Of a stretch of 64,000 bases of DNA, positions 17,581 through 34,467 are shown one piece after another; the first letter of the stretch is position 1; each line of letters begins with the position of its first letter. A model generated the notes under the pieces. That model was not told the DNA's origin. It saw only the letters and a list, made by a program, of their open reading frames with translations, and did no database searches. Position numbers and translations under genes: made by a program. Source of the DNA: Sinomonas notoginsengisoli (GTDB lineage: Bacteria; Actinomycetota; Actinomycetes; Actinomycetales; Micrococcaceae); contig NZ_JAIZDP010000012.1 in the NCBI RefSeq assembly GCF_021554725.1, positions 1-64,000 on the forward strand, given 5' to 3'.

Positions 17581-19918
17581 GCAATGCACGATGTCGAGCA
17601 GGCGCCCGGTGTGGTCCGTTCGCCCTTCCGTATGATGCTGCCACGTCGTGACCGTAAGGGGCGCTCACGCCGGCTGAAGTGCCTGTCGCTGGAGCTATAT
17701 GGCATCCTCTGGCAGACCCGCGGTCCTGCCGGCCAGCGCCCGCCCTTTTGGTTCTTCCTCTCAGCGCCGTGGTGACCATGGTGGTCTCGCACATGCCCGG
17801 TGTGCTCGGCGGGATGGTGAAGACCCCAAGCTCTCCTGGCAGGAGGCCTTCGCTGCCGACCTCGTCCTCTACCCGGGCGGCCTCCTCAAGGACGCCGTCC
17901 TGGTCGTGGCCGTGCGGACGTGCTCGTGCGCCATGAAGTGAAGGAGGGCGGGCAGGCGTGCCGCGAGTCGTGAAATCCAAGAGATCGGATTGGCACAGAC
18001 CGCTTGCAGGATCGACGGTCCGCTTGTACCCGTTGTAGTCCTGCTCGAGTTGTGTCCAAGTCTTCTCTGCGTTCATGAAGTTGCGCTCAGACAAGTACAC
18101 GATTATGTCGCGGGCTGCGAGGCCGTGAACCTTGATTCGCCCGAGCTTCGCTGTGTCGACCGCAGCGTGTCCCAGCTCTTGGAGCCACTTCACTTCCCCA
18201 CCGCCATGAACGCGCCCGAGCTTGTCCAACGCCCGTCGCGCTTCTTTCACGCTACCCGTATCAAGGTGCCTTTGAGCTTCCTCCCAGATGGGGCGGATCT
18301 GACCCATGAGTAGCCCGTCAAGAACTATCAAGAAAAGGGCTTCGGTACTTGTGAAGAGGAACCTTGCTTCGGCAACTGATCTCAAGTCTCTCGCTCCACG
18401 GAGCGTCAAGATTTGTGCAGAAGCTTTGTTCAAGTCGTCGGCTAGCAGACGGCTCAGAACCATTTCGTCGTGTTGCCCTTCGACCAGAACGAAGACCCGT
18501 GTGAGCTGAAGGATGTCCCCAGGGGTGAGTCCGAGTTGCTCGCAGATTCGGGATAGCGTCCCCTTGACGGCAGAGTCGATGACCGTGACCAAGGTGGGTT
18601 GGCCTAGCAGGCGGGTTGTTCTCAGGATCTCTGAGTTGGAACGCAAGTCAAGGAAAGCTGGGGCATGTGATGCCGTAAGCACCACGAGGCTCGGGTCTTG
18701 CGCGCACAGCTTGTTTAGAGCCGCCGGCAAGTCCTTCTCCCTGAGCCTGTGAAGACCTCGCTCCGGTTCGTCGATCAACAGCATTCTCGGCCTGCTGCCC
18801 TCATCGACGCCAGCCAGCGCCCATTGAACAGCCGCAACCGCCCACCTTTGTTCTGCAGTCGAAAGACCCGTTAATGCAAAAAGCTCTTCTACGTCGTTAG
18901 AGACAGGAACGAGCACCTTCCATTCCGGTGTCGCCCCGACAAACCATTCCTTCGGCGTCTTCAGGTCAATCTCAAGGCGATAGTGCTGATAGCCCATTAG
19001 AGAGAAAAACTGGTTGGCCCGGCATTCGATAGCTCTTACCCGCTTTCGAAAGGCGCTGTTGAATTCAACTTCTTCATCAATAACATTGATGAAGCCTTTT
19101 GTGGGGGAGGCTATGCTGACCAGCTTCTGGCTGGTCGCCCCCCGGATCCGCGGTGCCGACACGCCGTCCGTGATCGCGACCATTGGGCAGATCGATAGGC
19201 GCCCAAGCCAGAGCTGAGGGACCGGCCAGTTCCTAGGCCAAAAGTTCAGCTGGTCGGCCTCCCCTCGTGGCGCAACCAGTGGGAGCTCCTGCCACATCGG
19301 GCTGTCTTCGAGGAGCGGCAGTCCGGCGGGCTCAGAGAGTTCCTCAAGCCAGCCATCGGGAAGTCCTTGTCGCCCACCCCTCATGTGGCGTAATGCCCAG
19401 TCATGAATCATCATTTGCCGGTTTGCGGATTTGTGTACCCGAGACCACTCATCATCGCTCAGCGGCCATCCGTAGAAGCTTTCCCACTTCGGCTCATCCT
19501 CAGTCCCCACCGCTGCGAGAGAAACGAAAACGCTGTCCTCGACTGCCGGTACTTCAACCTCAGCCTTCTCGGAGATAGCCGAAACTGCTGCACGCCAGAG
19601 CGCCTGGCGGGTTCGACCGTAGATCTCCCTGGAATCAATATTAAGGCCTTGCCAGAGAGAGCGTTCGAAATGGCTCATCTCCTCAGGGTCATTCTCCGGC
19701 AGATCCGTGAGCCGGACATGTAGATAGGCGTGCGATCTTGACCCTCGTCGTCCTCCAAGGACGTTCAATAAGCCGTCGAGAATCGATGACTTGCCTGCGC
19801 CGTTGGGTCCAAAGAAGGTAAAGAGCCCGGCGTCTATTGGAAGGTGCACCTGCTCCAGGGGTGGCGGACCTATGAGGCTGACCCCAACGACCTCATAGCC
19901 ATTTGACCCCACGGCCAT
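17555..19918 (-). CDS. OLD-like ATPase with TOPRIM-like region, C-terminally truncated
   Basis: The N-terminal ATPase has Walker A FFGPNGAGKSS (about residue 37) and Walker B MLLIDEPERG (Asp383-Glu384), then LTASHAPAF. A TOPRIM-like region follows: FVLVEGQHDE (Glu480) and LFLIVLDGLL (Asp534). This is the layout of OLD-family nucleases, many of which act in phage defence. The usual second TOPRIM acidic residue appears to be Leu (DGL rather than DGD). Genuine sequence ends around residue 650 (near 17950). Beyond that the frame runs antisense through the bioY remnant to a chance stop at 17555, so the 787-aa product is a truncated gene with a nonsense tail. G+C is visibly lower than in its neighbours, suggesting transfer. 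Confidence 0.7.
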   Translation of the reverse strand: MAVGSNGYEVVGVSLIGPPPLEQVHLPIDAGLFTFFGPNGAGKSSILDGLLNVLGGRRGSRSHAYLHVRLTDLPENDPEEMSHFERSLWQGLNIDSREIYGRTRQALWRAAVSAISEKAEVEVPAVEDSVFVSLAAVGTEDEPKWESFYGWPLSDDEWSRVHKSANRQMMIHDWALRHMRGGRQGLPDGWLEELSEPAGLPLLEDSPMWQELPLVAPRGEADQLNFWPRNWPVPQLWLGRLSICPMVAITDGVSAPRIRGATSQKLVSIASPTKGFINVIDEEVEFNSAFRKRVRAIECRANQFFSLMGYQHYRLEIDLKTPKEWFVGATPEWKVLVPVSNDVEELFALTGLSTAEQRWAVAAVQWALAGVDEGSRPRMLLIDEPERGLHRLREKDLPAALNKLCAQDPSLVVLTASHAPAFLDLRSNSEILRTTRLLGQPTLVTVIDSAVKGTLSRICEQLGLTPGDILQLTRVFVLVEGQHDEMVLSRLLADDLNKASAQILTLRGARDLRSVAEARFLFTSTEALFLIVLDGLLMGQIRPIWEEAQRHLDTGSVKEARRALDKLGRVHGGGEVKWLQELGHAAVDTAKLGRIKVHGLAARDIIVYLSERNFMNAEKTWTQLEQDYNGYKRTVDPASGLCQSDLLDFTTRGTPARPPSLHGARARPHGHDQDGVLEEAARVEDEVGSEGLLPGELGVFTIPPSTPGMCETTMVTTALRGRTKRAGAGRQDRGSARGCHIAPATGTSAGVSAPYGHDVAASYGRANGPHRAPARHRALPTPAPAAR
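17745..17941 (+). pseudogene. Decayed duplicate of the bioY 3' end
   Basis: Pieces in three frames match intact BioY: FWFFL, then VVTMVVSHMPGVLGGMV, then KLSWQEAFAADLVLYPGGLLKDAV, and finally a degraded tail ending MK-stop. The intact gene reads VVTVVASHLPGVLGMM, ...LSWQAAFAADLVFYPGDLLKDAV and ...RRVK. Small indels shift the frame at least twice, and the 5' two thirds are missing. The stretch 17581-17745 before it has no gene. Its end marks the left edge of the lower-GC island. Confidence 0.8.
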
Positions 19919-20234
19919 GTTATCCTCCTAAGCAAAATTTGTGCGAATTCGAACTACTGCCGGCTTCTGAAGCCAAGTTCCCCTCAAGATGGGCGCAAAT
20001 TATTCGATTTGACATGGTATCCAACGCGTGTTTACGGGCCACGAGAAGCGACGTGCCGCGTTCACTTTCGCACGGCTCCCTGGTGTCACCCGCCCGCGAG
20101 CGGAGCCCGCGCCCGGGCACCTGCGATATGGTTTAACGCTGCCCTGCGTAACCGACGGTCGAGATCGAACTTTCCACGGCGGACACAGCCGCCCTATCAA
20201 AACTGCACTCACAAACTGACCAGTGGCGCAGAAC
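19919..20234. other. Intergenic stretch between OLD-like gene and IS element
   Basis: This 316-base stretch contains no convincing gene on either strand. It should hold the promoter of the OLD-like ATPase gene (TAGGAGGATAACATGG carries its ribosome-binding site). No repeat or tRNA is seen. Confidence 0.5.
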
Positions 20235-20262
20235 TGAAGCGCACTGGGTCTGATGGAGACTC
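20235..20262 (+). repeat. Left terminal inverted repeat of the IS
   Basis: 28 bases, perfect inverse of 21557-21584. It lies 3 bases beyond the orfB stop at 20266. GAAC precedes it. Confidence 0.92.
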
Positions 20263-20265
20263 GCG

Positions 20266-21111
20266 CTATTTGATTACCGCCAGCTGGTTGCGGTCCGCTT
20301 GGCCAGCATAGAACGCCTGCTCGAACTCGGCGGGCGGGATGTCGCCGAGGTAGCCGTGGAGGCGCTCGGTGTTGTGCCAGTGGACCCAGCCGAGGGTCGC
20401 GAGCTCGAGGTCCTCGACTGTCTTCCATGGTCCCGGGCGGGCTGGGCCGCGGACGAGTTCGGTCTTGTAGTAGCCGTTCACCGTCTCGGCCAGGGCGTTG
20501 TCGTAGCTGTCGCCGACGGTCCCGATCGACGGCGTGGCGCCGATCTGGGCGAGTCGCTCGCTGTAGCGGATCGAGGTGAACTGGCTGCCAGCATCGCTGT
20601 GGCACCGCAGGTCCTCGTGGTGGCGGCCTCGTGACCAGCGGGCCATCTCGATCGCGTCCAGGACCATCTCGGTGCGCATATGGGACGCGCAGCGCCAGCC
20701 GACGATCATCCTGCTGAATACGTCGATGATGAAGCAGACATAGGCCACACCCGCCCACGTGGGCACGAACGTCAGGTCCGTCATCCAAAGCCGGTTGGGT
20801 GCCGCCGCGGTGAACTCCCGCTTCACGAGGTCCGGATGCCGAGCAGCCGCAGGATCAGCCCTGGTCCTCTTGACCCGTTTGGCCCGAGTCGCGCCCTCGA
20901 TGCCAGCGGCGCGCATCAGCCGGCCGGTCTGATCGCGGCCGATGTCGATCCCGGACCGGCGGGCCGCCTTCCAGAGTTTGCGGACTCCGTAGACGCAGTA
21001 GTTCTCCTTCCACAGCGCCACCAGCTTGGGAATGAGGGCTGCGTCGCTCATCGCACGTGCCGAGGGGGCGCGGTCCTTCGCGGCGTAGTAGGTGCTCGGA
21101 GCTACCTGCAA
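20266..21111 (-). CDS. IS3-family transposase OrfB (DDE integrase core)
   Basis: 281 residues. An N-terminal helical region (VAPSTYYAAKDRAPSARA, YGVRKLWK) is followed by the catalytic core: first Asp in RLWMTDLTFVPT, second in CHSDAGSQFTSIRY and Glu in NALAETVNGYYKTEL. The C-terminal HNTERLHGYLGDIPPAEFE is standard. The frame is open upstream to beyond the orfA stop in the -1 register (PTPEVVAFIDANKNDIVEG), so the active OrfAB is probably made by ribosomal frameshifting and ATG 21111 may not be the real start. Confidence 0.9.
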   Translation of the reverse strand: MQVAPSTYYAAKDRAPSARAMSDAALIPKLVALWKENYCVYGVRKLWKAARRSGIDIGRDQTGRLMRAAGIEGATRAKRVKRTRADPAAARHPDLVKREFTAAAPNRLWMTDLTFVPTWAGVAYVCFIIDVFSRMIVGWRCASHMRTEMVLDAIEMARWSRGRHHEDLRCHSDAGSQFTSIRYSERLAQIGATPSIGTVGDSYDNALAETVNGYYKTELVRGPARPGPWKTVEDLELATLGWVHWHNTERLHGYLGDIPPAEFEQAFYAGQADRNQLAVIK

Positions 21112-21185
21112 CAGGCTGCAGATGGGCTCGACTCCGAGCGGGCGGCCTTCTACGATGTCGTTCTTGTTCGCATCGATGAACGCGA

Positions 21186-21530
21186 CTACTTCCGGTGTTG
21201 GCGGTCGAGCTCCGCCCCGAAGAAACTGGCGGCCCGCTTGAGGATCTCGTTCGCCCGGCGCAGCTCGCGGTTCTCCTGTTCCAACTCCCTGATCCGCCGG
21301 GCCTCGGCGGTGCTCACACCCGGCGCCGCGCCGTCGTCGATATCGGCCTGCCGCACCCAGGCCCGCACCGATTCGGGGCCATAGCCCAGCTGGGCCGCGA
21401 CCCGCTGCACTGTCCCGTGCTCGGTCCCCAGCTCCGCGCGCAGCGTCCGTACCATCCGCACCGCGGCAGCCTTCTCCTCCGGCGAATACCGACGTGCCGT
21501 CGGCTTCCCAGATCCATGACTCGTTGCCAT
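21186..21530 (-). CDS. IS3-family transposase OrfA (HTH)
   Basis: 114 residues from ATG 21530; an upstream ATG at 21566 lies within the terminal repeat and is less likely. It contains the transposase_8 helix-turn-helix (RRYSPEEKAAAVRMVRTLR, then VQRVAAQLGYGPESVRAWVR) and a leucine-zipper-like tail (ARRIRELEQENRELRRANEI). It overlaps the OrfB frame, which lies one base back. Confidence 0.9.
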   Translation of the reverse strand: MATSHGSGKPTARRYSPEEKAAAVRMVRTLRAELGTEHGTVQRVAAQLGYGPESVRAWVRQADIDDGAAPGVSTAEARRIRELEQENRELRRANEILKRAASFFGAELDRQHRK

Positions 21531-21556
21531 GACTCCATCCTCGTTTCCAAGGTCAG

Positions 21557-21584
21557 GAGTCTCCATCAGACCCAGTGCGCTTCA
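21557..21584 (-). repeat. Right terminal inverted repeat of the IS
   Basis: 28 bases, perfect inverse of 20235-20262. GAAC follows at 21585-21588. The further 262 bases to 21850 contain no recognisable gene. Confidence 0.92.
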
Positions 21585-21850
21585 GAACCGAGTTCGACGA
21601 CGGTCGCGTTTGCACCAAAGGAGGTGGCTGTCTCGGCTGAGATCGTCGACCGATCTCGCTTCCCGCCAGTCGGCCTCAGACGACACAGGCACCCTACGCT
21701 CGAGAATCTCCTCAACAAGGTAACCCAGCTCGGCGGTGTCCTCGCACAGCAATCATGAGATCTGAGGCCGTGCCTAGCTCGAGCAGCTCTGCAACGGGCA
21801 GCCCTGTCGGGCCGGGGCGGACCACCTATTTCCGCGCGCCTGGCGACTGT

Positions 21851-24800
21851 TCATCTTGCTGCGCCCAGCTCGGGGAGACCCAACCTTATGGCGTCCCGGT
21901 AGGCCTGAGTCATGCGGACTAGACGGGGTGCCTCTCCTGCCAAGCTGACGAAGGCCTCTCCCATGCCTAGGGTGCGGATCTGCTGCGCTAGGCGAGCGTT
22001 GTCTGGCTGGAGCTTTCGTGCGGCCATGGTGGCGACAGTCGCGTCGGGCAGCCCAAAGCAGATCTTGGTCTGCGCGTTCGCGGCCACCACATCGGGCAGA
22101 TCCAGAGGTCCTTGTGTGGCGAGAACTACTGCCAACCCCTTGGATCGACCTTCGCGGATCATGGTCTGGATGGCGCGGAATGGTGAGACCCGGTGTGCCT
22201 CGTCGACGACCATGACGTATCGGATGGTGTTTGGCACGGGCGGCAGATTCTGCACCCGTAGAAGGAGCGAGGAGAGGATGAATCCGGCTGCGAGCACAGT
22301 GGTCTGCCCATTTCCGGGGATCTTCGACAGCCCGAACACCACATTGGAGTCAATGACGTTCCCGAGTGGCTCTCCCGACTTGAAGAGGTCATTATGGGTC
22401 AGATCGCCGATCACGCCCGACAAGTCAGCATCAAGATGGTCATCGAGAGTGCGAAGGGTAGGCCACCGACGTTCGGCATGGCGGACGGCGTAGGCGTCTT
22501 TGAGCGCCTGCTCAAGTTTGGCACGCTGCCGGACGCCAAGCCGCGCACTTACTGACTTCACCGCTTCATCGACCGTGTCGCGCAGCTCGATTACCGCGCT
22601 TTGAATGGCACGGTCAGATTCGTCGTCGAGCGCGAGCGGGTTGTACGGCGCCCCCTCGTTCCATAGATCGACGAACTCGGCGCCTGCGAACGGGGGGAAG
22701 CCTGTCTCGTCGCTGTAGTCGTTCTTGAAATCGGCGACACCGAACCTGCTGCCGCTGAACTTGGAGAGCTGCCCAAGCAGGCTCATAGCGAACTGTGTCT
22801 TCCCCATCCCTGAGGATCCCCAGATCTCGGTATGGCCGTTCTGGAGGCTCGATTGGCCTGGGCCAGCGGGATGCCACCGCACCTCCTCTCCTGTGACGGC
22901 GTCCCACCCTAAGAGCGGGGCCACGAAATCTGGGCGTGCAGCAGGGGTGATCACGGAACCAGCTCCGGGGTATTGCGTTTCAGCGGTGGTTCCATGTTCC
23001 GCCGTCGACGGAGTGGTGGTGTCGGCCGCCGCTTCGGAAACCTGTTCCTTCTGTTCCGTGCTTGCATCCCGAGGTCCGCTAGAAGCGCCGGTGTCTGGTT
23101 CGAGCTCTCGTGGAGTTCCGCCATTGGTCTCGGGACGTCGACGAGTTCGGGTGCTTTGGAGTGGCGGACGGTCACTCTCCACCGTGCGCAGCGTCGTGAG
23201 ACTGGTCGAGGTCGCGGTACGAAGGAGTTCCTCGGTGAGCGGAATACTGTGAAGAACGACTGGCACGATGTCGTTCGCGACGTCAGTGCGGTAGGTGCGG
23301 TGCATGGGTTCGACGTTGGGGCCGAACACAAGTCCCACGCCAGCCCATTCCAGGGTGCCTTTGCCAAGGCGGAATGCTTCGAGCGCAGCCATCTCGGAAG
23401 AATCCAGCCTAAACCGGGACTCTCGAGCGACGGCGTAGGCAGCTTCCGCGATGCGGTTCAGCCACAGGCGGCTGTGAACGCTGCCTGCCTCTGGGTAGGC
23501 GGCCCATTTGGTTGCCGCCAGGCTTTGGTTTAGCTGGTCGAGAGCGCCGGCGGCGGCGTCGTTCTCGTCGCTGCGTCGGGCCTTCACCTCGATTGTAGCG
23601 ATGTGTACGCCCTGGTCCTGCGGGTCAAGGGCGATCGCGAGCAGATCGGCTCTCTTCTTAGGGAACCAGTGGCGGTACTCGTCGAGGCTGACGAGAAGGA
23701 CGCGGCATCCCGGGGGCAGAGGCCACGGCGTCGTCGTGGTTGCGAGCAGACTGAAGGCAACCACGTGTCCGACAAGCTCATTTATGCCGGCCCCGCTAGT
23801 CGCTGCCTGCAGCGCGAGGATACCATACCCTTGGGATGCAACCTGCCGAAGCTGCGTGCCGATGGAGAGCGCGACATCAGATTCGTTAATGATGCCAGCG
23901 CTGCGGAGGCTTCGACCGATTGCCCGGTCAGCAGGGCCGCCGGACTTCTGGCTCAGTACCAGAGACAGCGGACTGTCGCCGCCAAGGCGACGTTCTTGAT
24001 GGAGGATGGCGACATTGTCAGCGCCGAGTGCGTGTTCGAGACTATCCCGAGTCGCGTATCTATCCAGCGTGGCGACCCACAGAGCGAGGTCATGAATCTC
24101 CCGCAGCTTGGGCGCGAGGTCGAGGGCGCCTGTGCGCACTTCGGGAACCTGGAGAGGCTGCCCTTCTTCAGGCCAGGATTCATCGACAGCGTTCTGGAGA
24201 CGCAGCCAAGCTTGGCCGGCGGCCGAGGCTGCGGGGGGCATGAGAAGGGTGCGGCGGTCTTGCCTTGCCCGCTGCCATACCCGAGGGGCGAACAGGACTT
24301 CGTCGTCGACGGCGGGGGGCGAAACTTCGCGGTTCTCGATCTGCAGCGCATTCGGGCTGTTCGTCAGCCCGGTGACTAGGGCAAGGTGCACGGCGGGCGC
24401 CTCACCGCCGGGACGCAAAAGTTCTTGCGCGCGTGCGAGGTCGTTGATATAGCGTAGCTCGAGGACATCGCGCTCGTTGCGCAGCCGATCATCGGCCATT
24501 GCGAGGGTCTCAGGCAGCGGCCTGTCATCCTCGCTTGTCCCGACGCAGAAGATCTCGATCTTCCGGATTGTGGCCAGTCCCGCGCGGCGCCCAATTAGCT
24601 TCACTGCCTCACCGACCAAGAGGTCGGCAGCGCCGCCACCCCAGGCAAGGCAACGCAAGTGTCCGGCAGCTTCGGGCTGGAGGGTCAGCAGTTGCATGAT
24701 TACCGAGCTGAGCGCGTCGCCAGCGTATCCGCTTTCGTCCCGCGCCGACCTTCCACCATACAGGCTCCAGAGGCGTCCTTCGCTGGTGGGGAGTAAGGCG

Positions 24801-26746
24801 CGGTCTTGGGTGGACAGACGCAGGTGTGCTGGGTGGTGGGTTGCAGTTGCGTGGGCGATGCCGTTCGATGTCGCAACTGCATCGCCTGGGTCAAAGTCGG
24901 TCTTGGGTTCTTCTGCCCGGTTAACGAGCTTCCAGAGCGCTTCGAGGTACTGCGCCAGCCATTCTGCCTTCATTGGGGCGAAGGCGGTCAGTGCGACCGC
25001 ACGTTCGCTACGAACTGCTCCCGCGAGAGCTAGGGATTCTGCTGTCCCGGAATCGTCGGTGGCCTCCCGCTCCTTGCAGGTCGCCGTCCAGGCGTCCACC
25101 CAGGATCTGAGCGTGACCGGGTCGAGGCCCCTGTCGAGCGATGTGCGGGCCAACTGCCTCAGGGCTGTTGCGAGAGGGAGCAGGGGACGGGGGACGACCT
25201 CGGTCGCACTGGGGCTCGTGGGCCCACAGAAAGCGTGGAGGCTTGGCTCGTCGGGAAGTCCGAGGGTCAGAACGGGAGCCTCAGCGAAAAGGATGGCTGA
25301 ACGGAGGGTCGCAGCATCGTCAAGGTCGGGCCTCCAGTCGACCTGAACTGTGCTTCCGTCTTGGGCATGAAGTCGCAGCTGGAGTACCGGCAGTTGTCCC
25401 CCTGAAGCGAGCCCCGCATCACCGAAAGCCGCCAGCACATCGCCGAGATCGCCATCGTCCGCGGCACGCAGGAGCAGGCCGTCGACGTCGCCGCCAGAGT
25501 GGTCCCACGTCCGCATGAGCGCCCCGAGCCTCAGGCGTGCGCAGGCAAGCGTGAGGATGCGGCCCGCGCCGGTACGATTGGACGCTGCAGTCGCACTTGT
25601 TGGGGGATGGGGAAAAAGTACCTGGACGCGTTCGACCATGCCGCCCAGCTGCTGCGCCGCCCGGACGATCGCAGCTTCTGGACATGAGGGGCTGCTGCCG
25701 CTGACTGCCTTGTCGCGCAGCAGCCGTTCGAGCTTGCGCCGGGTGATGCGTTGGAAGATCTGTCTCTGCTGAGCATCGTCGAGGTCGCAGAGCTCCTGGG
25801 CCGCATTGCGCTGGCCGCTGCCCCTGCGCAGTTCTTCCGCGCGGAGTTCGTAAGTATGCCACGGTAAACTCGCTGCCTGGCTCATGATGTCGAGGCCGGT
25901 GCGGAAGAGAGCTATTTCTTGCAGAACAATGTCCGCCAGATTTTGTGGGCGTTGCTCGAAGATTTCACGGGCCTCGTCGAACCGGAGCGTTCTGAGCAGG
26001 TCCGTGCTTCCGGCCTGGAGCTGGGCCATTACGGCGTCCGCGGCTGCAGCTGCTCCCTTCGGACCGACCCCGGGGCGCCGGCCAAGAACCGACTCGGCGC
26101 GCTTTCTCAGATCACTGTATGCAGTTGGTTTTAGGAGGTCGTCGCTGGTCCGGCGGGCAGCTAGAGCGAGGTTGTCCCCGATCCGCTCAGAATCCACCCT
26201 CGCGCCTGAAGATACTCTGTCGGCGAAGGCTCCCAGAGTGGGGAGTGAGTCGAGGACATCGTCTCCTGCCGCGAGCCGGTCCAGATATGCCGCGACCGCG
26301 TGGGCACTCGGTCTTGCTGCCACGGGAGCCTGAATAATCGCCTCGCGTACCGCGCGGGACATGCCATCTAGGCCCACCGCTGGACGCTGCTGAGAAAGGA
26401 TGCCCATGCCTTCCGCAGTCTCCAGCAGGACGCTGGGCGAGACGGAGTCGAACAAGTTCAGTGACTGCCGATCAGCCACTTGTTCGCCGTCGCAGAGCAC
26501 AAGGACCACGCCTCCGCTGCTCTGGTTCCGCAGCTGGGTTCCCGACACGTCGTGCATCGCATGCGATCCGAAGCGAGCTGGTGAGGACGAGACGATGGCC
26601 AGCTGGGGAAGGCGATTGTCCCAGGCAGCGCTCATGCCCTCAGCGACCGACGTTGGCACACCTTCGACGAGGACGAAGCTCCGCTCTCCGATTGTCAGAT
26701 GGCGACGTAGGTGCTCCGCCAGAGCACGTCCAAGGCGGGCGCTCAA
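21851..26746 (-). CDS. DptH-like protein: PD-(D/E)XK-type motif plus C-terminal HerA/FtsK-like ATPase
   Basis: A 1,631-residue protein and the last gene of a four-gene overlapping operon. The last ~330 residues form a HerA/FtsK-like ATPase: Walker A WGSSGMGKTQ (Lys1316), FGVADFKNDY, Walker B YVMVVDEAHR (Asp1515-Glu1516) and LATQGPLDLP. In the middle, KKRADLLAIAL (Asp1034) and IATIEVKARR (Glu1053-Val-Lys1055) fit a PD-(D/E)XK nuclease core. The first ~1,000 residues match nothing I know. Length, C-terminal ATPase and position after DptF- and DptG-sized genes match DptH, the motor-effector of phosphorothioation-dependent restriction. The start is TTG 26746, overlapping the upstream stop (TTGA). 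The motor and motif are seen; the DptH label is inferred. Confidence 0.7.
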   Translation of the reverse strand: MSARLGRALAEHLRRHLTIGERSFVLVEGVPTSVAEGMSAAWDNRLPQLAIVSSSPARFGSHAMHDVSGTQLRNQSSGGVVLVLCDGEQVADRQSLNLFDSVSPSVLLETAEGMGILSQQRPAVGLDGMSRAVREAIIQAPVAARPSAHAVAAYLDRLAAGDDVLDSLPTLGAFADRVSSGARVDSERIGDNLALAARRTSDDLLKPTAYSDLRKRAESVLGRRPGVGPKGAAAAADAVMAQLQAGSTDLLRTLRFDEAREIFEQRPQNLADIVLQEIALFRTGLDIMSQAASLPWHTYELRAEELRRGSGQRNAAQELCDLDDAQQRQIFQRITRRKLERLLRDKAVSGSSPSCPEAAIVRAAQQLGGMVERVQVLFPHPPTSATAASNRTGAGRILTLACARLRLGALMRTWDHSGGDVDGLLLRAADDGDLGDVLAAFGDAGLASGGQLPVLQLRLHAQDGSTVQVDWRPDLDDAATLRSAILFAEAPVLTLGLPDEPSLHAFCGPTSPSATEVVPRPLLPLATALRQLARTSLDRGLDPVTLRSWVDAWTATCKEREATDDSGTAESLALAGAVRSERAVALTAFAPMKAEWLAQYLEALWKLVNRAEEPKTDFDPGDAVATSNGIAHATATHHPAHLRLSTQDRALLPTSEGRLWSLYGGRSARDESGYAGDALSSVIMQLLTLQPEAAGHLRCLAWGGGAADLLVGEAVKLIGRRAGLATIRKIEIFCVGTSEDDRPLPETLAMADDRLRNERDVLELRYINDLARAQELLRPGGEAPAVHLALVTGLTNSPNALQIENREVSPPAVDDEVLFAPRVWQRARQDRRTLLMPPAASAAGQAWLRLQNAVDESWPEEGQPLQVPEVRTGALDLAPKLREIHDLALWVATLDRYATRDSLEHALGADNVAILHQERRLGGDSPLSLVLSQKSGGPADRAIGRSLRSAGIINESDVALSIGTQLRQVASQGYGILALQAATSGAGINELVGHVVAFSLLATTTTPWPLPPGCRVLLVSLDEYRHWFPKKRADLLAIALDPQDQGVHIATIEVKARRSDENDAAAGALDQLNQSLAATKWAAYPEAGSVHSRLWLNRIAEAAYAVARESRFRLDSSEMAALEAFRLGKGTLEWAGVGLVFGPNVEPMHRTYRTDVANDIVPVVLHSIPLTEELLRTATSTSLTTLRTVESDRPPLQSTRTRRRPETNGGTPRELEPDTGASSGPRDASTEQKEQVSEAAADTTTPSTAEHGTTAETQYPGAGSVITPAARPDFVAPLLGWDAVTGEEVRWHPAGPGQSSLQNGHTEIWGSSGMGKTQFAMSLLGQLSKFSGSRFGVADFKNDYSDETGFPPFAGAEFVDLWNEGAPYNPLALDDESDRAIQSAVIELRDTVDEAVKSVSARLGVRQRAKLEQALKDAYAVRHAERRWPTLRTLDDHLDADLSGVIGDLTHNDLFKSGEPLGNVIDSNVVFGLSKIPGNGQTTVLAAGFILSSLLLRVQNLPPVPNTIRYVMVVDEAHRVSPFRAIQTMIREGRSKGLAVVLATQGPLDLPDVVAANAQTKICFGLPDATVATMAARKLQPDNARLAQQIRTLGMGEAFVSLAGEAPRLVRMTQAYRDAIRLGLPELGAAR

Positions 26747-28308
26747 CGGTGGCTCCTGGATGCGCGCTCCCCGACCATCGTGGTGCGGTCCGATAGCCCC
26801 ACCGCGAGACCTGCGTCGCTCATCAGCCGCTCCGCGGCGCGGGCGTTCTGAGCGAGCCGTGCGCCGTCTAGCTGGGCTGCCAAAGCAGTTTCTGCGGCTG
26901 ACTCTTGGTTAATCACGAGATCCCACTCTTCTCGGGCTGCCGCAATGAAGTCACGGCTGGACATCGGCATTCGGTTCGACAAGGCACCTACCATCGCGCC
27001 AAGGAGATCCGGGGTCGCCGTTAGGTATCGGTACGAGCCCGTCCCCACCAGCATGCCCACTGATTCCAATAGCACCCGGAAGCCGTCCTCGGATCCTCGG
27101 CTGTAGTTCGCCGTTTCCACTGCCAACCGTGCCAATCGGAGGTACTCCTCGTGTCCGGCGGGCAGGGGAAGGCGGGTGAGTTGATTGGTGACGCTGTCAT
27201 GGCTTCTCGCGTCAGCTAAGGTCCGGTCCCGGAACTCGCCGGAAAAGGCGGTCACCTTATCCTCTTCTTTAAGCTCGCGCATGAGCTTGGCGAGCGTTCG
27301 AACGGTGGCCTCGCTTAGTCGGATGCGGGCGCGCCGGTACGATTCTTCTGACCGCTGCCGGACCGGGTCCTGCGCACGTGGGGAACCCCCGAAACTCAAC
27401 AGCAGGAACCGGTCCTCGGACGGCGTGTCGGTCGCGTCCCACGCGGTGCGCAGGACGTGAAGAGCCAAGTCGAGGCCGAGCATGCAGCGCAACTGCCAGA
27501 GCTTCGCGGGCCCGCTGGCATTGCCCTGGAGCATGATTCCCTCGGCGTGGCGGCACAGACTTCGGGCGAGGCCCGCCAGTCGGGGGTCGGCGCCACGTCT
27601 CCATGCTGATTCCTCATCTTCCTCAAGGTCGATGCGCCGGTCGGTCCAGGTCTCGTTCGACGGCAGCGCGCTCTCCAGGATCGAGCCGATGTCGGCCAGC
27701 GGACTGGCAGCATTCAGTTCTTCTCGGATCCGCCCGACCGCCACCTTTCCGAGGGCGGCGTCGGAGGAATCAGCTGGATCGGCCAGAAGCCGCGCGAGGG
27801 TGATCCCGCTTCCTCGCATGTAGACCTTGCGGACCGTGTACTCGCTGCTGCGAGGGCTCGGCTTACGCGCGTCGTACCACAGTAGCGACTCGTGGAATGG
27901 GCGGAGCAGCCAAGCCCCCTTCTGACCTCGTTGTGTCTCTGGATCGATGAGGCCTTGCAGGGTGAGCTGGGCGAGCTGAAGATTGGCAGAACCACGAACT
28001 TGGTCCCCCGATGCTAGTCGATCACCGTACTCCTCTGGCGAAGTGTCCGGATCCCCAACTCGACCCTTGGAGCGGCCACCGAGAAAGTTCTCCCCTAGGG
28101 CCAGACTGCGCACAGCAAAGAGCTGCCGCTTGGGGGACTGGAGGTCATCAATAGAGTCCGGGGCGCAGTAGTCATTCTGGCGCAGAGTTAACAGTGTTTC
28201 TGCGCACAGTTGGGGCGCACGCTCGTCGCGGTCTGGTGCCAGGCAGAATAGGTCTTCCGCGACGGCCCCAGGGCTCAGCCGGTAAAGGTTCTTGCGTTGC
28301 GATGCCAT
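26743..28308 (-). CDS. DptG-like component of the restriction operon
   Basis: A 521-residue soluble protein without a motif I can name. Helical and charged segments dominate; RFLLLSFGGSPRAQDPVRQR and EESYRRARIRLSEATVRTL stand out in the middle. Its start (ATG 28308) shares one base with the stop of the DptF-like gene (TGATG), and its stop overlaps the TTG start of the DptH-like gene, so the three are made in fixed ratio. The DptG label rests only on size and on being the middle gene between DptF-like and DptH-like proteins. It is likely a scaffold or adaptor. Confidence in a real gene is high; in the family it is modest. Confidence 0.55.
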   Translation of the reverse strand: MASQRKNLYRLSPGAVAEDLFCLAPDRDERAPQLCAETLLTLRQNDYCAPDSIDDLQSPKRQLFAVRSLALGENFLGGRSKGRVGDPDTSPEEYGDRLASGDQVRGSANLQLAQLTLQGLIDPETQRGQKGAWLLRPFHESLLWYDARKPSPRSSEYTVRKVYMRGSGITLARLLADPADSSDAALGKVAVGRIREELNAASPLADIGSILESALPSNETWTDRRIDLEEDEESAWRRGADPRLAGLARSLCRHAEGIMLQGNASGPAKLWQLRCMLGLDLALHVLRTAWDATDTPSEDRFLLLSFGGSPRAQDPVRQRSEESYRRARIRLSEATVRTLAKLMRELKEEDKVTAFSGEFRDRTLADARSHDSVTNQLTRLPLPAGHEEYLRLARLAVETANYSRGSEDGFRVLLESVGMLVGTGSYRYLTATPDLLGAMVGALSNRMPMSSRDFIAAAREEWDLVINQESAAETALAAQLDGARLAQNARAAERLMSDAGLAVGLSDRTTMVGERASRSHR

Positions 28309-30182
28309 CAGTCGCCTCGTTTTGTGAAGTGCGGGAGGGAGATCGTGACCAGGGCAGGCGGGGTGGAGTCCGGGTCGGCAACTCGCAGTGAACGATCGGT
28401 GGGCAGATATGCCGCCAGACGCCCATAGAAGCCACGCAGGTCATTCATTTCAGCCACACCTTGGCCAACGGGCCCCTGGAACGCAGCAGCCTCCCGGATC
28501 GCCTCATACATGCGAGGCGTGATGCGCAGGGCGAGGTCGTGGTCGTGAGCCACGACCAGCTCCACGTCCACATGGTCAACATCGAGTAGCTCCTCGACTA
28601 GACCGGAATCGGGCACTCTGAGTGCCAGCTCTTCCAGCTGAAGTTGCCCGTGCACCAGGGACGGACGTGCGGGCCTGAACGAGCCGGGATCACGTGCGAA
28701 CAGGCATGCGGGATCGGGCACGATCAAGCCCTCGTTCGGGCTTGAGAACCCGGTCACGAGGAAGTTCAGGCCACGGACAATCTCATTCAATTCGATCACC
28801 GTGTCTCCGCCGCCGGCCACCCTCCGGGCAAGTGCAACCAGGGCGACGATATGGCGGTAGTCCAAGAGGCGCCGCGCGGATTCGGCAGGCCCTCCGAGGA
28901 CGCTTGGGGCTTCGAAGAAGATGCGTTGCCTCCAGAGACGTTCTGCCGGTGCGTTTGTGACGCCGTCACCCCGGACCAGGGAATCCAATCCATCTTCGAC
29001 GCGGATCGGGTCCTCGTCAGTGCTGACCATCTCCCCCAACGCATAAAAGGTCATCTCGCCCTGAGCCGTGCGAATTCTGTCGAGGGGCGACACCGAGCCG
29101 GCCAGCCCTGAAAGATGACCGCGCTCGGCGACCTCGGCGCGCGTGATGTGGGGGTCGCCAGCGATGCGCCGCACATCTTCGGGGGCCCCGCTTGCGTCGC
29201 GTAGCCACCCGTCCACCTCGAGATCGCTAAGCGCGCCCAAGCCTGAGTGCCTCATCCCTGTCAGCAGTGGCGACCGCTCGGCGGTATCGGCCGGGAGACC
29301 TCCGCCCAGGACGCGCGCGAAGTAACCGTCCGTGGCGGTGAAGGCGCTGTTGCCACGGTCGCGGTTGTCATCTTTCACCTGTTTGCAGCTGTGGGGCCCA
29401 ACGACCGCCCACGACAGGATCGCCAGGACTTCTCGCAACGTGGGGACTGCCTCGCCGGTAGCCAGGCGCACTAGAGTGCGTAGCTGCTCCCGAACGTCAG
29501 ATCGGCGCAGGTGAGCAGCATTGCTGCGCATCGGACAGCCGCCGCTACTGAAGGGACAATCCGCACACCCGCTCCAGATCTCTTCACGCGTTACATAGTC
29601 CACCAGCTGGTTCCACAGACGGTCCCCGGTGGGCCGTTGCCGGTTCACGTTAACGATGATGAGGCCGTCGGTCTTGGCCGCGCCGTGCCTAAGAGCACGA
29701 TCTAGAACCTCAGCTTCGTTATGCGCTCCGATGTCTTCGAGGGCATCACGAAGGACCCCTTCGTTGGCGCACAATAGCGTCTTAAAGTCACTGGCGTCGA
29801 GAGCGGAGCGCATGGTCAAGGCACGAGCCGGAGCGTCGGGCAGGCCGGAAAGATCTTTGACCACTTGCTGCCCGGGCGCGACCTCAACAAGGACGTCCTC
29901 GGTGGGCAGACTCGCCCCAGCGGCGCGGCAAAAAGCCTCTGCGACGGCAGTCTTCCCGGTACCTGCATTGCCCGTGAGCACCACGACTCCCGGCGCGCCC
30001 TCGGTTGCCCAGTGAGCGACGAACCGGCCAAGCTTGGTCTCCACGTCGTCGCTAAGAGAGTCGGCGAGCTGGGCGAAATGCTCCCGGTAGGCTCCAGCCT
30101 GGTCCGCGCTGAAGACTGAGAGAAGTCTCAACGCCCTGACCGCGGGAAGTTCTTCTGGTGGGGGCATAGCTATGTTGTTCAC
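28308..30182 (-). CDS. DptF-like ATPase of the restriction operon
   Basis: A 624-residue P-loop protein. Walker A is VVLTGNAGTGKTA (residues 67-79). LLCANEGVLRDAL (136-148) and LIIVNVNRQRP follow, and a cysteine cluster CADCPFSSGGCP (Cys206, 209, 216) probably binds zinc. A P-loop, an Asn-Glu-Gly segment and a C-x2-C-x6-C cluster is the arrangement I recall for DptF, the ATPase of the Dnd restriction complex; BrxC-like ATPases are the alternative. The GTG start at 30182 overlaps the methyltransferase stop by four bases (GTGA); an ATG at 30167 is possible. The context says a restriction NTPase coupled to a cytosine methyltransferase. Confidence 0.65.
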   Translation of the reverse strand: MNNIAMPPPEELPAVRALRLLSVFSADQAGAYREHFAQLADSLSDDVETKLGRFVAHWATEGAPGVVVLTGNAGTGKTAVAEAFCRAAGASLPTEDVLVEVAPGQQVVKDLSGLPDAPARALTMRSALDASDFKTLLCANEGVLRDALEDIGAHNEAEVLDRALRHGAAKTDGLIIVNVNRQRPTGDRLWNQLVDYVTREEIWSGCADCPFSSGGCPMRSNAAHLRRSDVREQLRTLVRLATGEAVPTLREVLAILSWAVVGPHSCKQVKDDNRDRGNSAFTATDGYFARVLGGGLPADTAERSPLLTGMRHSGLGALSDLEVDGWLRDASGAPEDVRRIAGDPHITRAEVAERGHLSGLAGSVSPLDRIRTAQGEMTFYALGEMVSTDEDPIRVEDGLDSLVRGDGVTNAPAERLWRQRIFFEAPSVLGGPAESARRLLDYRHIVALVALARRVAGGGDTVIELNEIVRGLNFLVTGFSSPNEGLIVPDPACLFARDPGSFRPARPSLVHGQLQLEELALRVPDSGLVEELLDVDHVDVELVVAHDHDLALRITPRMYEAIREAAAFQGPVGQGVAEMNDLRGFYGRLAAYLPTDRSLRVADPDSTPPALVTISLPHFTKRGD

Positions 30183-31369
30183 TGGCCTACCGCAGCCCTT
30201 TCCTCACTGGAGGCGGCTCCTAGTACCGGCCTCGGCACACTGACGAGTTGGCGCTGTCCACGGCGGCCAGCAAGAAGTTCGGCCCCGCTTCGGGCGGGAG
30301 CCCCTGCCGTCTCCAAGACCTGGGCCAGCGCCCCAACGATGAGCTCGGCCGCCGGGGGCGGGACGGCGTTGCCGATCTGCCTCCTGACCCGTGGGTACGC
30401 CGACCTCGCGTCCCGAAGATCCTTACCGAACTCGAAGACAAAGTCATCGGGAAAGCCTTGTAGGCGTGCTTTCTCGCGATTGGAGAGGCGCCGTGGCTCG
30501 ATGTGGTGGTATCCATGAGTCCCCCCGCCTCCGCCCGCGATAATCGTGTACGAGGGCTTGTCTGGATCAACCCGGCGGTACACGTGGCTTATCAGCCCCT
30601 TCACGGCCAAAGGGTGGTCGGCGGGGATCACCTCGAAATTCGAACCCGGTGGGATCAGCTTGAGCCGCTCGACAACGTCCCGGCTATCCTGGCCGCGCTC
30701 GTGGTTAGGGGCATCATCAGGAAGAGGATGTCGATCCAGAGCATCCCGCACAGTGCGGGGTGAGCCTTGAAATGGTGTGGGGATGATCGGTGGCCGGACC
30801 CCCAAGTCCCGACGAACGCCGAGGACGATAAGGCGCTCTCGGTTCTGCGGCACACCAAGATCCGCCATATCCACCACCTGAGCGCTGATGTCGTAGTGGA
30901 CTCCACGGCCATAGGGACGATTCATCGGCGCCCCGTCAACGAAGCTGCTCGGCGACTTCAAAGCGTGCCGGACAAGGGTCCAAGCGACACCACGGTTTGC
31001 CGAAAGCAATCCGGGGACATTTTCAAGCAAAAAAGCTGCTGGCTGGAGTGCGTCCAGATATCGCGCGACCTGGCGGAAAAGGTTGCCACGGGCGGTCATC
31101 AAGCCATCATGGTTCCACAGTGTGGAATAGTCTTGACAGGGCGGGCCGGCGAGAAGGATGTCGCACGGTACATCGGGAACAGGCGTCTCAGTGATGTCGC
31201 CTTCGACGATGTGTTTGCCGATATTGCGACGGTACGTTTCCACTGCCCAGTGCTCATTGTCGATGGCCCACACGACACGGGCGCGTCCGGATTGCTCGGC
31301 GCCAAGGTCCATGCCACCGCAGCCTGAGAACAACGAGACAGCGGCGTAACGCTTCGGGCGAGGCGCCAT
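30179..31369 (-). CDS. DNA (cytosine-5) methyltransferase
   Basis: A complete 396-residue C5 methyltransferase with motifs in canonical order: motif I SLFSGCGGMDLG (12-23), motif IV AGPPCQDYS with the catalytic Cys78, motif VI FLLENVPG (116-118 = ENV), motif VIII PQNRERLIVLG (175-185), motif IX RLSNREKARLQGFP (294-307) and motif X GNAVPPPAAE (333 onward). The target-recognition region is about residues 190-290; the recognised sequence cannot be predicted. It is first in the operon, overlapping the DptF-like gene by four bases, so it probably protects host DNA from that machinery. No Vsr repair gene is beside it. Confidence 0.92.
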   Translation of the reverse strand: MAPRPKRYAAVSLFSGCGGMDLGAEQSGRARVVWAIDNEHWAVETYRRNIGKHIVEGDITETPVPDVPCDILLAGPPCQDYSTLWNHDGLMTARGNLFRQVARYLDALQPAAFLLENVPGLLSANRGVAWTLVRHALKSPSSFVDGAPMNRPYGRGVHYDISAQVVDMADLGVPQNRERLIVLGVRRDLGVRPPIIPTPFQGSPRTVRDALDRHPLPDDAPNHERGQDSRDVVERLKLIPPGSNFEVIPADHPLAVKGLISHVYRRVDPDKPSYTIIAGGGGGTHGYHHIEPRRLSNREKARLQGFPDDFVFEFGKDLRDARSAYPRVRRQIGNAVPPPAAELIVGALAQVLETAGAPARSGAELLAGRRGQRQLVSVPRPVLGAASSEERAAVGQ

Positions 31370-32105
31370 TAGATTGACCCCCGCACAGGAGTGACCAATC
31401 CGGCGTCGTGGTGATTCAGGGTTGGAGCGCCAGGCCCACGGCTAGTCGCATGTAGCCGCTGACGCTCGCCCTCTACTGTCGCGGTGGCCGTCGGCGTTCC
31501 CAAGCGCCCAAGGCGCTCGACCTGGGCGGCGCCTGCGCCTTTGCACACAGCTCGGAGGCGAGCCGAGACCGCACTGGCTTGGCCGTCGGCATGTGCGTCG
31601 GGGGCGGTTGTCCTTCTCATGCAAGCCACGCTATACGGCTCATCCGACATTCTTGCCGAACGGCACGGTGCCCCGATCCGTTGAGTCAAGCGGTCGTGAC
31701 CGTAGAGCGGGTCCCTGCTCCTCTCAGCCCCGGGGTATCGCCGGTGGCGCTGCTGTTCAGACCACCAGCTGGGTTGCAGGTGAGAGGCACATTTCTTGTC
31801 GCGTGAGTGCCCCGATCTGCGTCGGGGAGGCGTTGGGAGTCACGGACGGATGGTGAGGCTTCCTCGGCAGGAACGTGATGAGTCCCATAGGTTCCGCTGC
31901 TGCCTCCCCAGGAGGTGTTGTCTGGGCCTGCCCACTCCCTGATGGCGACCAGCGCGACAACCGTCGCCAGCTCGCTAGGCGACGAGAGGGACGACGCAGG
32001 TTTCGCGCAGGAACTCCCTGAAGCTGGATCCACGATGAGCACGCGCGAGCACAATGGACTTGGCCAAATCATTCGACCCGGGAACCACTTACGCCGTACC
32101 TGCAC
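31370..32105. other. Long gene-poor stretch upstream of the methyltransferase
   Basis: About 730 bases without a convincing gene. It must contain the promoter of the defence operon. One minus-strand frame, from ATG 31650 to a TAA at 31369-31371, ends in TAATG with the methyltransferase start. That is the arrangement of a coupled upstream gene (about 93 residues, SAVSARLRAVCKGAGAAQVE), but its composition is not clearly protein-like. No regulator or tRNA is visible. Confidence 0.4.
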
Positions 32106-33010
32106 CACCCGCGCCGCACCACCGCCAACCGCCCGCTCGCCCCCTCCGCCTTCCTGGCCGCCTCCGTCGCCGTGGCGGGCCTCGCGACGGCGACGGCCGC
32201 GGCCGCCCAGGCGGCCGGCGTCGTCCCTCAGACCACGACGACCATCACCTACACCGCACCGAACCCGGAACCGGCCTACGGCACCGAGGCCGCGGCCCTC
32301 CTCGAGACGATCCCGGTCAAGGGCCGCGCGCTGAACACGGGCTACGACCGCTCCCAGTTCGGCCCGGCCTGGCTCGACGCGGACGAGAATGGCTGCGACA
32401 CCGCAACGACATGCTCAACCGCGACCTGACGGACATCACCTACGTCACGTCCGTCCCCTGCACCGTCGCCTCCGGCACCCTCGCCCACCCCTACACCACC
32501 ACGACCATCGCGTTCCTGCGCGGGGTGGGTACGAGCGACGCGGTGCAGATCGACCACGTCGTCGCCCTCTCCGACGCCTGGCAGAAGGGCGCCCAGCAGC
32601 TCACCTACTCCCAGCGCGTGGCCCGCGCCAACGACCCGCTCAACCTCCAGTCCACCGACGGGCCCACCAATGAGCAGAAGGGCGACGGCGACGCCGCCAC
32701 CTGGCTGCCGCCGAACACCGCCTTCCGCTGCGCGTACGTCGCCCGCCGGGTCTCGGTGAAGGCCACCTACAGCCTCTGGGTCACGCAGGCCGAGCACGAT
32801 GCCATCGCCGGCATCCTCGCCCAGTGCCCGGGCCAGCTGGCCCCGACGGACCAGCCCGACCCGGCCGCGCCGCCCGCCCCCCGCCCCGGCGCCCGCGCTC
32901 CCGACCGTCACCCCGGGCGCGTACTGCAGCACAGCCGTCGCCCAGGGCGTGAGCTCCATGGGAGCTCTCGACACGTGCAAGACCTCGGCCACGGACACGC
33001 GGCTGCGCTG
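32106..33010 (+). pseudogene. Secreted HNH (DUF1524/GmrSD-like) nuclease, frameshifted
   Basis: A hydrophobic leader (PLAPSAFLAASVAVAGLATA) precedes LLETIPVKGRALNTGYDRSQ and FGPAWLDADENGCDT. The frame then slips by one base near 32400 (a C seems missing) and resumes as RNDMLNRDLTDITYV. The HNH core QIDHVVALSDAWQKGA and the NDPLNLQ motif follow. Near 32880, in a C-rich run, the frame slips back (+1) to PTVTPGAYCSTAVAQG and ...DTRLRW. The two shifts compensate, so this may be a recent pseudogene or sequencing error in homopolymers. No start codon is seen before the leader. The intact family consists of extracellular nucleases. Confidence 0.75.
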
Positions 33011-33054
33011 GGCGACAGTAGACTGCGCATTCCGCCCATCTGCCTCCGGAAACA

Positions 33055-33087
33055 GAGGAGGGCCCGATCAAAGACCGGGCCCTCCTC
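33055..33087. terminator. 12-bp hairpin downstream of the MHS transporter
   Basis: GAGGAGGGCCCG at 33055-33066 pairs perfectly with 33076-33087 across ATCAAAGAC. It lies 10 bases past the stop of the minus-strand transporter and just after the HNH nuclease remnant, so it can serve as a terminator for both. Confidence 0.7.
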
Positions 33088-33096
33088 GGCGCTTCC

Positions 33097-34467
33097 CTAT
33101 GCCTGGACAGCCTCCTTGGCTCCTTTGGGTGCGGTGGTATCGGCCGCCGTCAGGCTCCGACCCTTGGACTCCCGCGTCAGCAGCGTGGCGACAATGCTGA
33201 CCGCGCAGATTGCGGCAGTGAAAAGCGCCACCATGCCGTAGTTGTTCCCGTTGCCGGTGGCCAGAATGGACACTGCGATCAGCGGCGCAAAGCCCGAGCC
33301 GAGCGTTGACCCGAGCTGGTATCCGAGCGATGCTCCCGAGTACCGGGCGCCCGTCCCGAACATTTCCGAGATGAAGGACGCGAGGGGTCCGAAGATGGCC
33401 GAATGCACGAGCGCGTTGCCGATCAGCAGTGCCACGAGGCACAGCCACCCGTTCCCGGTGCTGAACGCATAGAGCATCGGGTAGGCGAAGACGAGACCCA
33501 CCGCGGACCCTCCGATGATCACCGGCCGGCGGCCGATTCGGTCGGAGAGCGAGCCGAAGAACGGCATCGACACGACGTGGACCACGGCGGCAACCGCCTG
33601 AATGGCGAGGGCGTCCGCAACAGAGACGCCGTTCTGCGTCATCATCGTCAGGGCGAACGTGCCCATGAGTGCGAGGTAGACGAAAGCACCCACCGAGCTG
33701 AGGGCCGAGAGCACGACTGCCCTCGGGTACTTGGTGAGGACGGTCCAGAGCGGGGCGCGAACCTTGCCGGCCTTATTCGCCTCGGCCGTTTCGATCATCT
33801 GCTTGAACAGCGGCGATTCCTGGACGGACATCCGGATCCACAGGCCGACGGCGACGAGGACAGCGCTGAAGAGGAACGGGATGCGCCAGCCCCAGGCGAA
33901 GAACTCGGCGTCGGTCATGAAGAGCCGCACGATGAACACAAGACCCGTCGAGAGCAAAGTCCCCGTGGCCGCCCCGACGTTCGCGATGCTCGAGGCGAAG
34001 CCCCGGCGGCCGGTGGGAGCGTGCTCGAGCGCGAGCAGCGCTGCGCCGCCCCACTCGCCGCCCACCGCGATCCCCTGCACGATGCGCAGCACCACCAAGA
34101 GGATCGGCGCGAGGACGCCGATCGACGCTGCTGGGGGGATGAGCCCGATGAGAACGCTCACGCCGCCCATGAGCGACATGGTGATGACCAGCATCGACTT
34201 GCGGCCAACCTTGTCGCCGAAGTGACCGAAGATCATCCCACCGATCGGCCGTGCGACGTAGCCCACTGCGAGGGTGGCGAAGGACGCGAGAAGACCGCCG
34301 AGTTCCCCGGTGCCCGCGAAGAAGACCTTCGAGAAGATGCCAAGGCTTGCGATGACTCCGTAGAGCAGGAAGTCGTAGTACTCGATGGAGCTGCCCAGAT
34401 ACCCGGACAGGATGACCCTCTTGAGCCGGGGTGAGAGTTTGCGGCTCTCCTTGGTGCTGGTGACCAC
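33097..34467 (-). CDS. MFS transporter, metabolite:H+ symporter (MHS) family
   Basis: About 456 residues. It has SGYLGSSIEYYDFLLYG in helix 1, YVARPIGGMIFGHFGDKVGRK between helices 2 and 3, and RIVQGIAVGGEWGGAALLALEH in helix 4, the MHS pattern (shikimate/proline-betaine/KgtP relatives). The GTG at 34467 is favoured because AGGAG lies ten bases upstream; ATG 34503 adds 12 residues. It is a monocistronic unit with its own terminator. The substrate is not deducible. It is distinct from the MHS gene at 10633. Confidence 0.88.
   Translation of the reverse strand: MVTSTKESRKLSPRLKRVILSGYLGSSIEYYDFLLYGVIASLGIFSKVFFAGTGELGGLLASFATLAVGYVARPIGGMIFGHFGDKVGRKSMLVITMSLMGGVSVLIGLIPPAASIGVLAPILLVVLRIVQGIAVGGEWGGAALLALEHAPTGRRGFASSIANVGAATGTLLSTGLVFIVRLFMTDAEFFAWGWRIPFLFSAVLVAVGLWIRMSVQESPLFKQMIETAEANKAGKVRAPLWTVLTKYPRAVVLSALSSVGAFVYLALMGTFALTMMTQNGVSVADALAIQAVAAVVHVVSMPFFGSLSDRIGRRPVIIGGSAVGLVFAYPMLYAFSTGNGWLCLVALLIGNALVHSAIFGPLASFISEMFGTGARYSGASLGYQLGSTLGSGFAPLIAVSILATGNGNNYGMVALFTAAICAVSIVATLLTRESKGRSLTAADTTAPKGAKEAVQA

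Follow-up and report, generated by a model that had tools for sequence, protein, structure and literature searches.

How can a cell keep a restriction complex of the phosphorothioate (PT) class when a cytosine methyltransferase takes the place of the enzymes that would make the PT mark? This question is raised by a four-gene operon, M-F-G-H, in the first 64,000 nucleotides of contig NZ_JAIZDP010000012.1 of Sinomonas notoginsengisoli (assembly GCF_021554725.1); this whole stretch is referred to below as the window. An earlier note on this DNA, made from the letters alone, had read the operon as a DptFGH-like restriction module in which the sulfur mark was replaced by 5-methylcytosine (5mC). The replacement of the mark was strengthened by our analysis, with a C5 methyltransferase beside FGH in 9/9 actinobacterial loci with a short F, a Vsr-family gene in 7/9 and no DndC or SspD found; the family, on the other hand, proved to be SspFGH and not DptFGH. 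Based on these sequence comparisons, 5mC is likely the self-mark of this SspFGH-type complex.

The four genes lie on the minus strand, and in the open reading frame (ORF) listing neighbouring genes overlap by 4, 1 and 4 bases, just as had been noticed before (Table 1). M is a complete C5-cytosine methyltransferase, again in agreement with the earlier note: it matched PF00145 with an E value of 3.7e-58, residues 10-348 being aligned with positions 3-322 of the 324 in the profile, and the PADLOC model MTase_II at 3.5e-89. Its closest solved relative was M.HaeIII (7.4e-28). The M-F-G-H arrangement is not due to chance, because the same order was found in six other genomes, with protein identities of 61-88% gene by gene.

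These seven loci constitute the subfamily of the window. Mycobacterium paraense (L022), Actinomycetospora chiangmaiensis (L023) and Cellulomonas sp. Leaf395 (L024, 81-88% identical to the window) were found in a contig pattern scan (86 stretches matched), which used two short N-terminal patterns and reaches near relatives only. Genome G886 (L050) came from the order of the window, in which 2/396 genomes matched, its own included; among genomes of the phylum, 2/396 matched, again with its own included, and the other one (G096) carries the L022 contig. Genomes G1186 (L058) and G1441 (L059) complete the list. M was located directly 5' of F in 7/7 loci and was 76-88% identical to that of the window; the gene after M was F in each of them. 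Within the subfamily, the four proteins have diverged to similar degrees (61-88%). When M of the window was searched for in the order of G096 (397 genomes, 4 candidates scored per genome), three genomes matched at E<=1e-30, namely G096, G1186 and G1441, the same three genomes that bear the subfamily F. No relative was found in two scans of viral contigs, and phages gave no match.

Vsr is a mismatch endonuclease that acts on the T:G mismatches arising from deamination of 5mC, and it is the usual repair partner of 5mC. A Vsr-family gene (PF03852, E 6.2e-19 to 3.3e-16) was the next gene 3' of H in 5/7 subfamily loci. In L022, L023, L058 and L059 it overlaps H or begins no more than 8 bases after it; in L024, the first in-frame start codon of Vsr is about 110 bases past H. 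The position of Vsr after H suggests that the chromosome has been methylated over the long term. In L024, there is additionally a degenerate Vsr-like fragment upstream of the operon (L024:6608-6715). The same locus encodes a tyrosine-type integrase (PF00589; L024:19141-20370) soon after Vsr, so the operon there may lie in a mobile island.

Two further loci, L060 (G1362) and L061 (G1256), represent a second lineage. Their F proteins consist of 615 and 604 amino acids, respectively, and resemble F of the window only remotely, that of L060 being 27.5% identical to it over 309 residues. They matched the SspF and SspH models more strongly than the proteins of the window did (SspH, 2.4e-93 and 3.8e-93). 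Both loci carry a C5 methyltransferase (PF00145, 4.3e-50 and 2.8e-46) and Vsr (9.2e-19 and 7.5e-20), in different layouts: in L060, M and Vsr are divergent from FGH; in L061, M is upstream of FGH and Vsr faces FGH. We compared the two loci gene by gene (L060:4590-15052 with L061:7020-17491). F, G and H showed 64, 62 and 66% identity, respectively, whereas M showed only 34%. In view of this difference, M has probably been swapped for another C5 methyltransferase in the second lineage while FGH was retained, as judged from the sequences. The two M proteins are more alike at residues ~241-320 (35-50%) than at 21-240 (18-32%), perhaps because the replacing enzyme has a related target. In H, identity was lower at residues ~121-300 (42-53%), 511-570 and 1201-1290. 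The stretches 511-570 and 1201-1290 are low in the subfamily of the window too, but ~121-300 is not, or less so. Because of the shared low stretches, the comparison gives no clear sign of a matching swap of a recognition region in H. The earlier note had described neither the Vsr gene of related loci nor the swapping of M while FGH stays.

The family assignment of F, G and H rests on profile searches. F matched the PADLOC model of SspF (PDLC02795) at 3.2e-25. G matched SspG (PDLC02799) at 8.2e-12 over residues 260-512, and H matched SspH at 2.2e-20 over residues 823-1251. Using hhalign, we compared G and H with SspG and SspH alignments made from the plasmid and second-lineage proteins: G scored 96.5% (E 8.6e-10, columns 113-510), and H scored 98.8% (E 8.3e-17), covering residues 586-1160 only. 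In H, profiles of DndH matched nothing but the HerA part (residues 1247-1545, 9.2e-19), and none of the PADLOC profiles of DndF, DndG or BrxC matched F, G or H at E<=1. DptFGH/DndFGH was accordingly rejected as a family name, and the identification of the three proteins as DptF, DptG and DptH in the earlier note did not hold. That note would have taken a good match to a different known system as counter-evidence; this was found in part, in that SspFGH is the better name.

The catalytic parts of the complex appear intact. The C-x2-C-x6-C cluster that had been noticed in the 624-residue F protein is indeed present and, like the Walker A motif, is invariant in the six F proteins of alignment A1, which include four plasmid F proteins adjoining SspBD-type genes; the cluster is likely a zinc site. 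The PD-(D/E)XK nuclease and HerA/FtsK motor predicted for H were confirmed as well, the catalytic residues of both domains being the same in all 16 H proteins aligned (seven from the subfamily of the window, two from the second lineage, four from plasmids and three of the long-F type). The motor end of H matched HerA_C (3.6e-07) and the solved DptH fragment 7es4 (3.5e-11). A sensor glutamine and an arginine finger are hallmarks of the DndH motor, and DndG is a triple winged-helix protein, according to the accessible text of PMC10853773; the N-terminal parts of DndH are described as inactive helicase, beta-sandwich, target recognition and dead methyltransferase domains. For residues 1-1195 of H, no fold match was found at E<=0.001 with a model of pLDDT (predicted local distance difference test score) 41 built from a 4-row alignment. 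The predicted structure of G reached a pLDDT of 37.6, also from a 4-row alignment, and the low values for G and for H 1-1195 are probably due to the shallow alignments. Solved structures gave only weak matches to F and G (E 0.067 and above).

We then asked which PT enzymes the genomes encode. In the genome of the window (3.59 Mb, 99.97% complete), TIGR03183 (DndC) found nothing; this is a weak control, since 0/14 control genomes passed the cut-off. PF01507 (the PAPS-reductase family), which we take to cover DndC as well, gave two matches in each of nine genomes, and all 18 were CysD (9) or CysH (9) by NCBIfam. A DndC/SspD-type gene was thus found in none of the 9/9 genomes by PF01507, and the same search recovered SspD in a control plasmid (9.4e-13). 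SspB (DUF4007) was detected in none of the seven genomes tested of the nine and was recovered in the control plasmid at 1.9e-55. A dndABCDE cluster elsewhere in the genome, which would have spoken against the earlier proposal, was not found, the search being for the DndC type only and DndB, DndD and DndE not being searched.

In Escherichia coli, SspFGH in the absence of the PT mark impaired growth and caused filamentation and DNA damage positive in terminal deoxynucleotidyl transferase dUTP nick-end labelling (TUNEL), and SspBCD restored growth (PMC8092258, accessible text). Since SspFGH is harmful without its mark, an FGH retained in the absence of PT genes must be protected in another way or behave differently. 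A catalytically intact FGH in genomes in which no PT enzymes were found points to another protecting mark, probably, and M, encoded in the same operon, is the evident candidate for making it.

From the sequences, we infer that M is active, that its 5mC would protect DNA from FGH, that F and G have the roles given here and that FGH would restrict phages. M would methylate a sequence motif across the host genome. The three other proteins would assemble on incoming DNA, with G and parts of H touching the DNA. The HerA/FtsK motor of H would pump DNA, while F would bind nucleotide and control the complex. Unless the 5mC mark were encountered, the DNA would then be cut or nicked by the PD-(D/E)XK domain of H. 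Vsr, located 3' of H in most relatives, would mend the T:G mismatches left by deaminated 5mC. If this is true, an FGH lineage with M and Vsr built in would show that the self-mark is exchangeable, and M provides a one-gene handle on the discrimination of self from non-self by FGH. The system would also offer a cleaner setting for the PT puzzle of how unmarked host sites escape, because 5mC maps can be obtained for any strain through sequencing, whereas PT is partial and heterogeneous in its host.

The linkage of M to FGH was compared with that in other FGH loci. Profile A1 matched 14/394 genomes of the class, two with the window subfamily and 12 with a long F, that is, an F of 1268-1411 amino acids with the F core at its end. 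The F profile matched 7/397 genomes, three with the subfamily, two with the second lineage and two with a long F. The one long F that was scanned (L025) has NERD and kinase domains ahead of the F core. Among the 10 flanking proteins examined with Pfam, long-F loci had a UvrD-like helicase (L025, L033 and L036), a SNF2-type helicase (L028 and L029) or AIPR (L031 and L032). Four plasmid loci (H1, H2, H3 and H10, out of 12 plasmid matches) all carry DUF4007 and a PAPS-reductase-family gene with a large gene between the two, corresponding to SspBCD, beside FGH; a C5 methyltransferase was found in 0/4 of them by tblastn. In two (L003 and L004), there is also a gene with the annotation 'DNA phosphorothioation-associated putative methyltransferase'. 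The tree of F proteins supported the long-F group at 100/99 and the plasmid group at 100/100, and the nine M-linked proteins came together at 83/61 with long branches. Given this support and these branches, the two M-linked lineages may or may not share a common origin.

Several findings weigh against 5mC as the self-mark. Neither a C5 methyltransferase nor Vsr was found in any of the 14 long-F loci (15-20 kb each, searched by tblastn using four methyltransferases and one Vsr as queries), so some FGH complexes apparently function without one; the survey of neighbourhoods proposed in the earlier note thus yielded M as a constant neighbour in short-F loci and as an absent one in long-F loci. The survey itself was small and mostly of one bacterial class, extended beyond it only by the contig-pattern, plasmid, phage and viral searches. 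The window and L050 have no Vsr beside H (in L050, none within its stretch). M also matched the models DruM (1.4e-53) and DrmMII, among the best 25 of its 61 PADLOC matches, which makes its sequence that of a general C5 methyltransferase. Finally, the change in H between L060 and L061 is small for a protein that would have to recognize the motif of its M, unless both M proteins share the motif.

The loci without M lend themselves to another explanation, in which FGH is a standalone complex against invaders and M with Vsr is a separate modification unit guarding the cell from other nucleases. DndFGH has been proposed to be such a standalone complex (accessible text of PMC10853773), and the absence of a nearby C5 methyltransferase from 14/14 long-F loci fits. 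We regard this explanation as unlikely for the loci with M, given the overlaps of 1-4 bases among M, F, G and H in the window, Vsr 3' of H in 5/7 loci, the linkage of M in all nine and the similar divergence of the four subfamily proteins; a standalone role also sits poorly with the damage that SspFGH does without its mark (PMC8092258, accessible text). Alternatively, the complex might be modification-dependent, either attacking 5mC-containing DNA or acting on invading DNA that M has marked for it. The other Ssp effector, SspE, is PT-sensing and stimulated by PT, and a complex that reads 5mC chemistry instead of a motif would fit with M being exchanged under a largely constant FGH. SspFGH, however, damages non-PT DNA and not PT DNA (both points from the accessible text of PMC8092258), and a cell bearing M would mark its own genome for attack. 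With Vsr suggesting a chromosome methylated for a long time, this possibility seems quite improbable.

M and Vsr could also be what is left of a type II restriction-modification system that has lost its nuclease and lies beside FGH by chance. A C5 methyltransferase with Vsr is a common type II set, and a GmrSD-type nuclease domain is encoded upstream of the operon in the window (PF07510) and in L022 (PF03235). Chance would nevertheless have to place M next to F in 7/7 loci and, in five of these, Vsr on the far side of FGH; in the second lineage, it would have to bring Vsr and a C5 methyltransferase to FGH twice, the two methyltransferases sharing only 34% identity. We give this explanation very little credence. 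With 5mC as the preferred self-mark, one can go a step further and picture FGH as a modification-agnostic engine, gated by PT or 5mC according to the modification gene plugged into it. M could then be swapped and FGH remodelled only a little, since what the complex senses would be the mark, or the methyltransferase itself, and not a fixed motif. This extension is tentative, and we consider it rather doubtful.

Among known systems, SspABCD-SspFGH (PMC8092258) is similar in F, G and H by profile, in the order of the three genes and in the FtsK/HerA motor that ends H; it differs in that a C5 methyltransferase, with Vsr in most relatives, replaces SspB, SspC and SspD here, and no SspD type was found in the nine genomes. 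DndABCDE-DndFGH (DptFGH) has a similar F/G/H plan, and the HerA part of H resembles DndH by profile and by 7es4; no DndF or DndG match and no DndC were found, and the modification enzyme is a different one here. SspFGH and DndFGH are said to have no sequence homology in PMC8092258 but are treated as homologs in PMC12707154, in which dndFGH and sspFGH are the PT restriction branches (both in accessible text). The CxC ABC-ATPase/DndE systems of PMC10853773 are Dnd-related and have a cytosine methylase in place of PT enzymes; they are built on the ABC-ATPase/DndE pair with other nucleases, and a methylase with FGH is not described in the accessible text of that paper. There, DndFGH is standalone, with no inbuilt modification module, and its main text mentions neither Vsr nor SspFGH. 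Cytosine methylases occur in some of the Dnd systems, according to PMC12839542. Type II restriction-modification shares the C5 methyltransferase and the pair of M and Vsr; its restriction part is a simple endonuclease, unlike the three-protein complex with a DNA motor found here. MADS shares only the motor of H, which matched mad8 (2.5e-18), whereas F, G and the nuclease part of H matched Ssp models. In the literature covered, which leaves aside the supplements of PMC10853773 and most subscription papers, we found no FGH described together with both Vsr and a C5 methyltransferase. Within that literature, where FGH is either paired with PT or standalone, the coupling of SspFGH-type restriction to a C5 methyltransferase, usually with Vsr, would be new.

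Table 1. Genes, protein motifs and the insertion sequence at the operon; positions are those of the window, and residues those of the encoded proteins.
Feature	Position	Strand	Description
M	30179..31369	-	396 amino acids; C5-cytosine DNA methyltransferase, proposed self-marking enzyme
F	28308..30182	-	624 amino acids; SspF-like P-loop protein
Walker A of F, residues 70-78	29949..29975	-	T70, G71, A73, G74, G76, K77 and T78 invariant in 6 F proteins
C-x2-C-x6-C of F, residues 206-216	29535..29567	-	C206, C209 and C216 invariant in 6 F proteins
G	26743..28308	-	521 amino acids; SspG-like, probable DNA-binding subunit
H	21851..26746	-	1631 amino acids; SspH-like, nuclease and DNA motor
PD-(D/E)XK nuclease core of H, residues 990-1071	23534..23779	-	E990, D1022, D1034, E1053, K1055 and Q1071 invariant in 16 H proteins
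HerA/FtsK ATPase of H, residues ~1278-1615	21902..22915	-	K1316, D1515, E1516, R1534 and Q1545 invariant in 16 H proteins
IS3-type insertion sequence	20234..21585	-	occupies the Vsr position of relatives, just 3' of H

The insertion sequence is bounded by perfect 29-base terminal inverted repeats (20234-20262 and 21557-21585) and contains two transposase ORFs, 21186-21566 (PF01527) and 20266-21111 (rve). There are two more matches to it in the host genome, on contigs C3 (91%) and C6 (87%, partial). No Vsr remnant was found in the window (best tblastn E 0.051). The host genome has a single Vsr-family gene, on contig C27 (C27:54336-54533; L037 and L038), and no C5 methyltransferase was found in ~20 kb around it when the longest ORFs were checked in a simple way for its motifs.

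Beyond the insertion sequence, ORF 17555-19918 encodes an ATPase of the AAA_21/SMC-like type, with weak matches to mad3, AriA and OLD-family models; it is perhaps an additional defence gene. With the MADS profiles, it scored 3.4e-11 for mad3 and 2.3e-05 for mad8 (five proteins of the window were scanned, the result for M covering the best 25 of 61 matches). On the other side, divergent from the operon, ORF 32054-33241 on the plus strand encodes the GmrSD C-terminal nuclease domain (PF07510, 1.9e-17).

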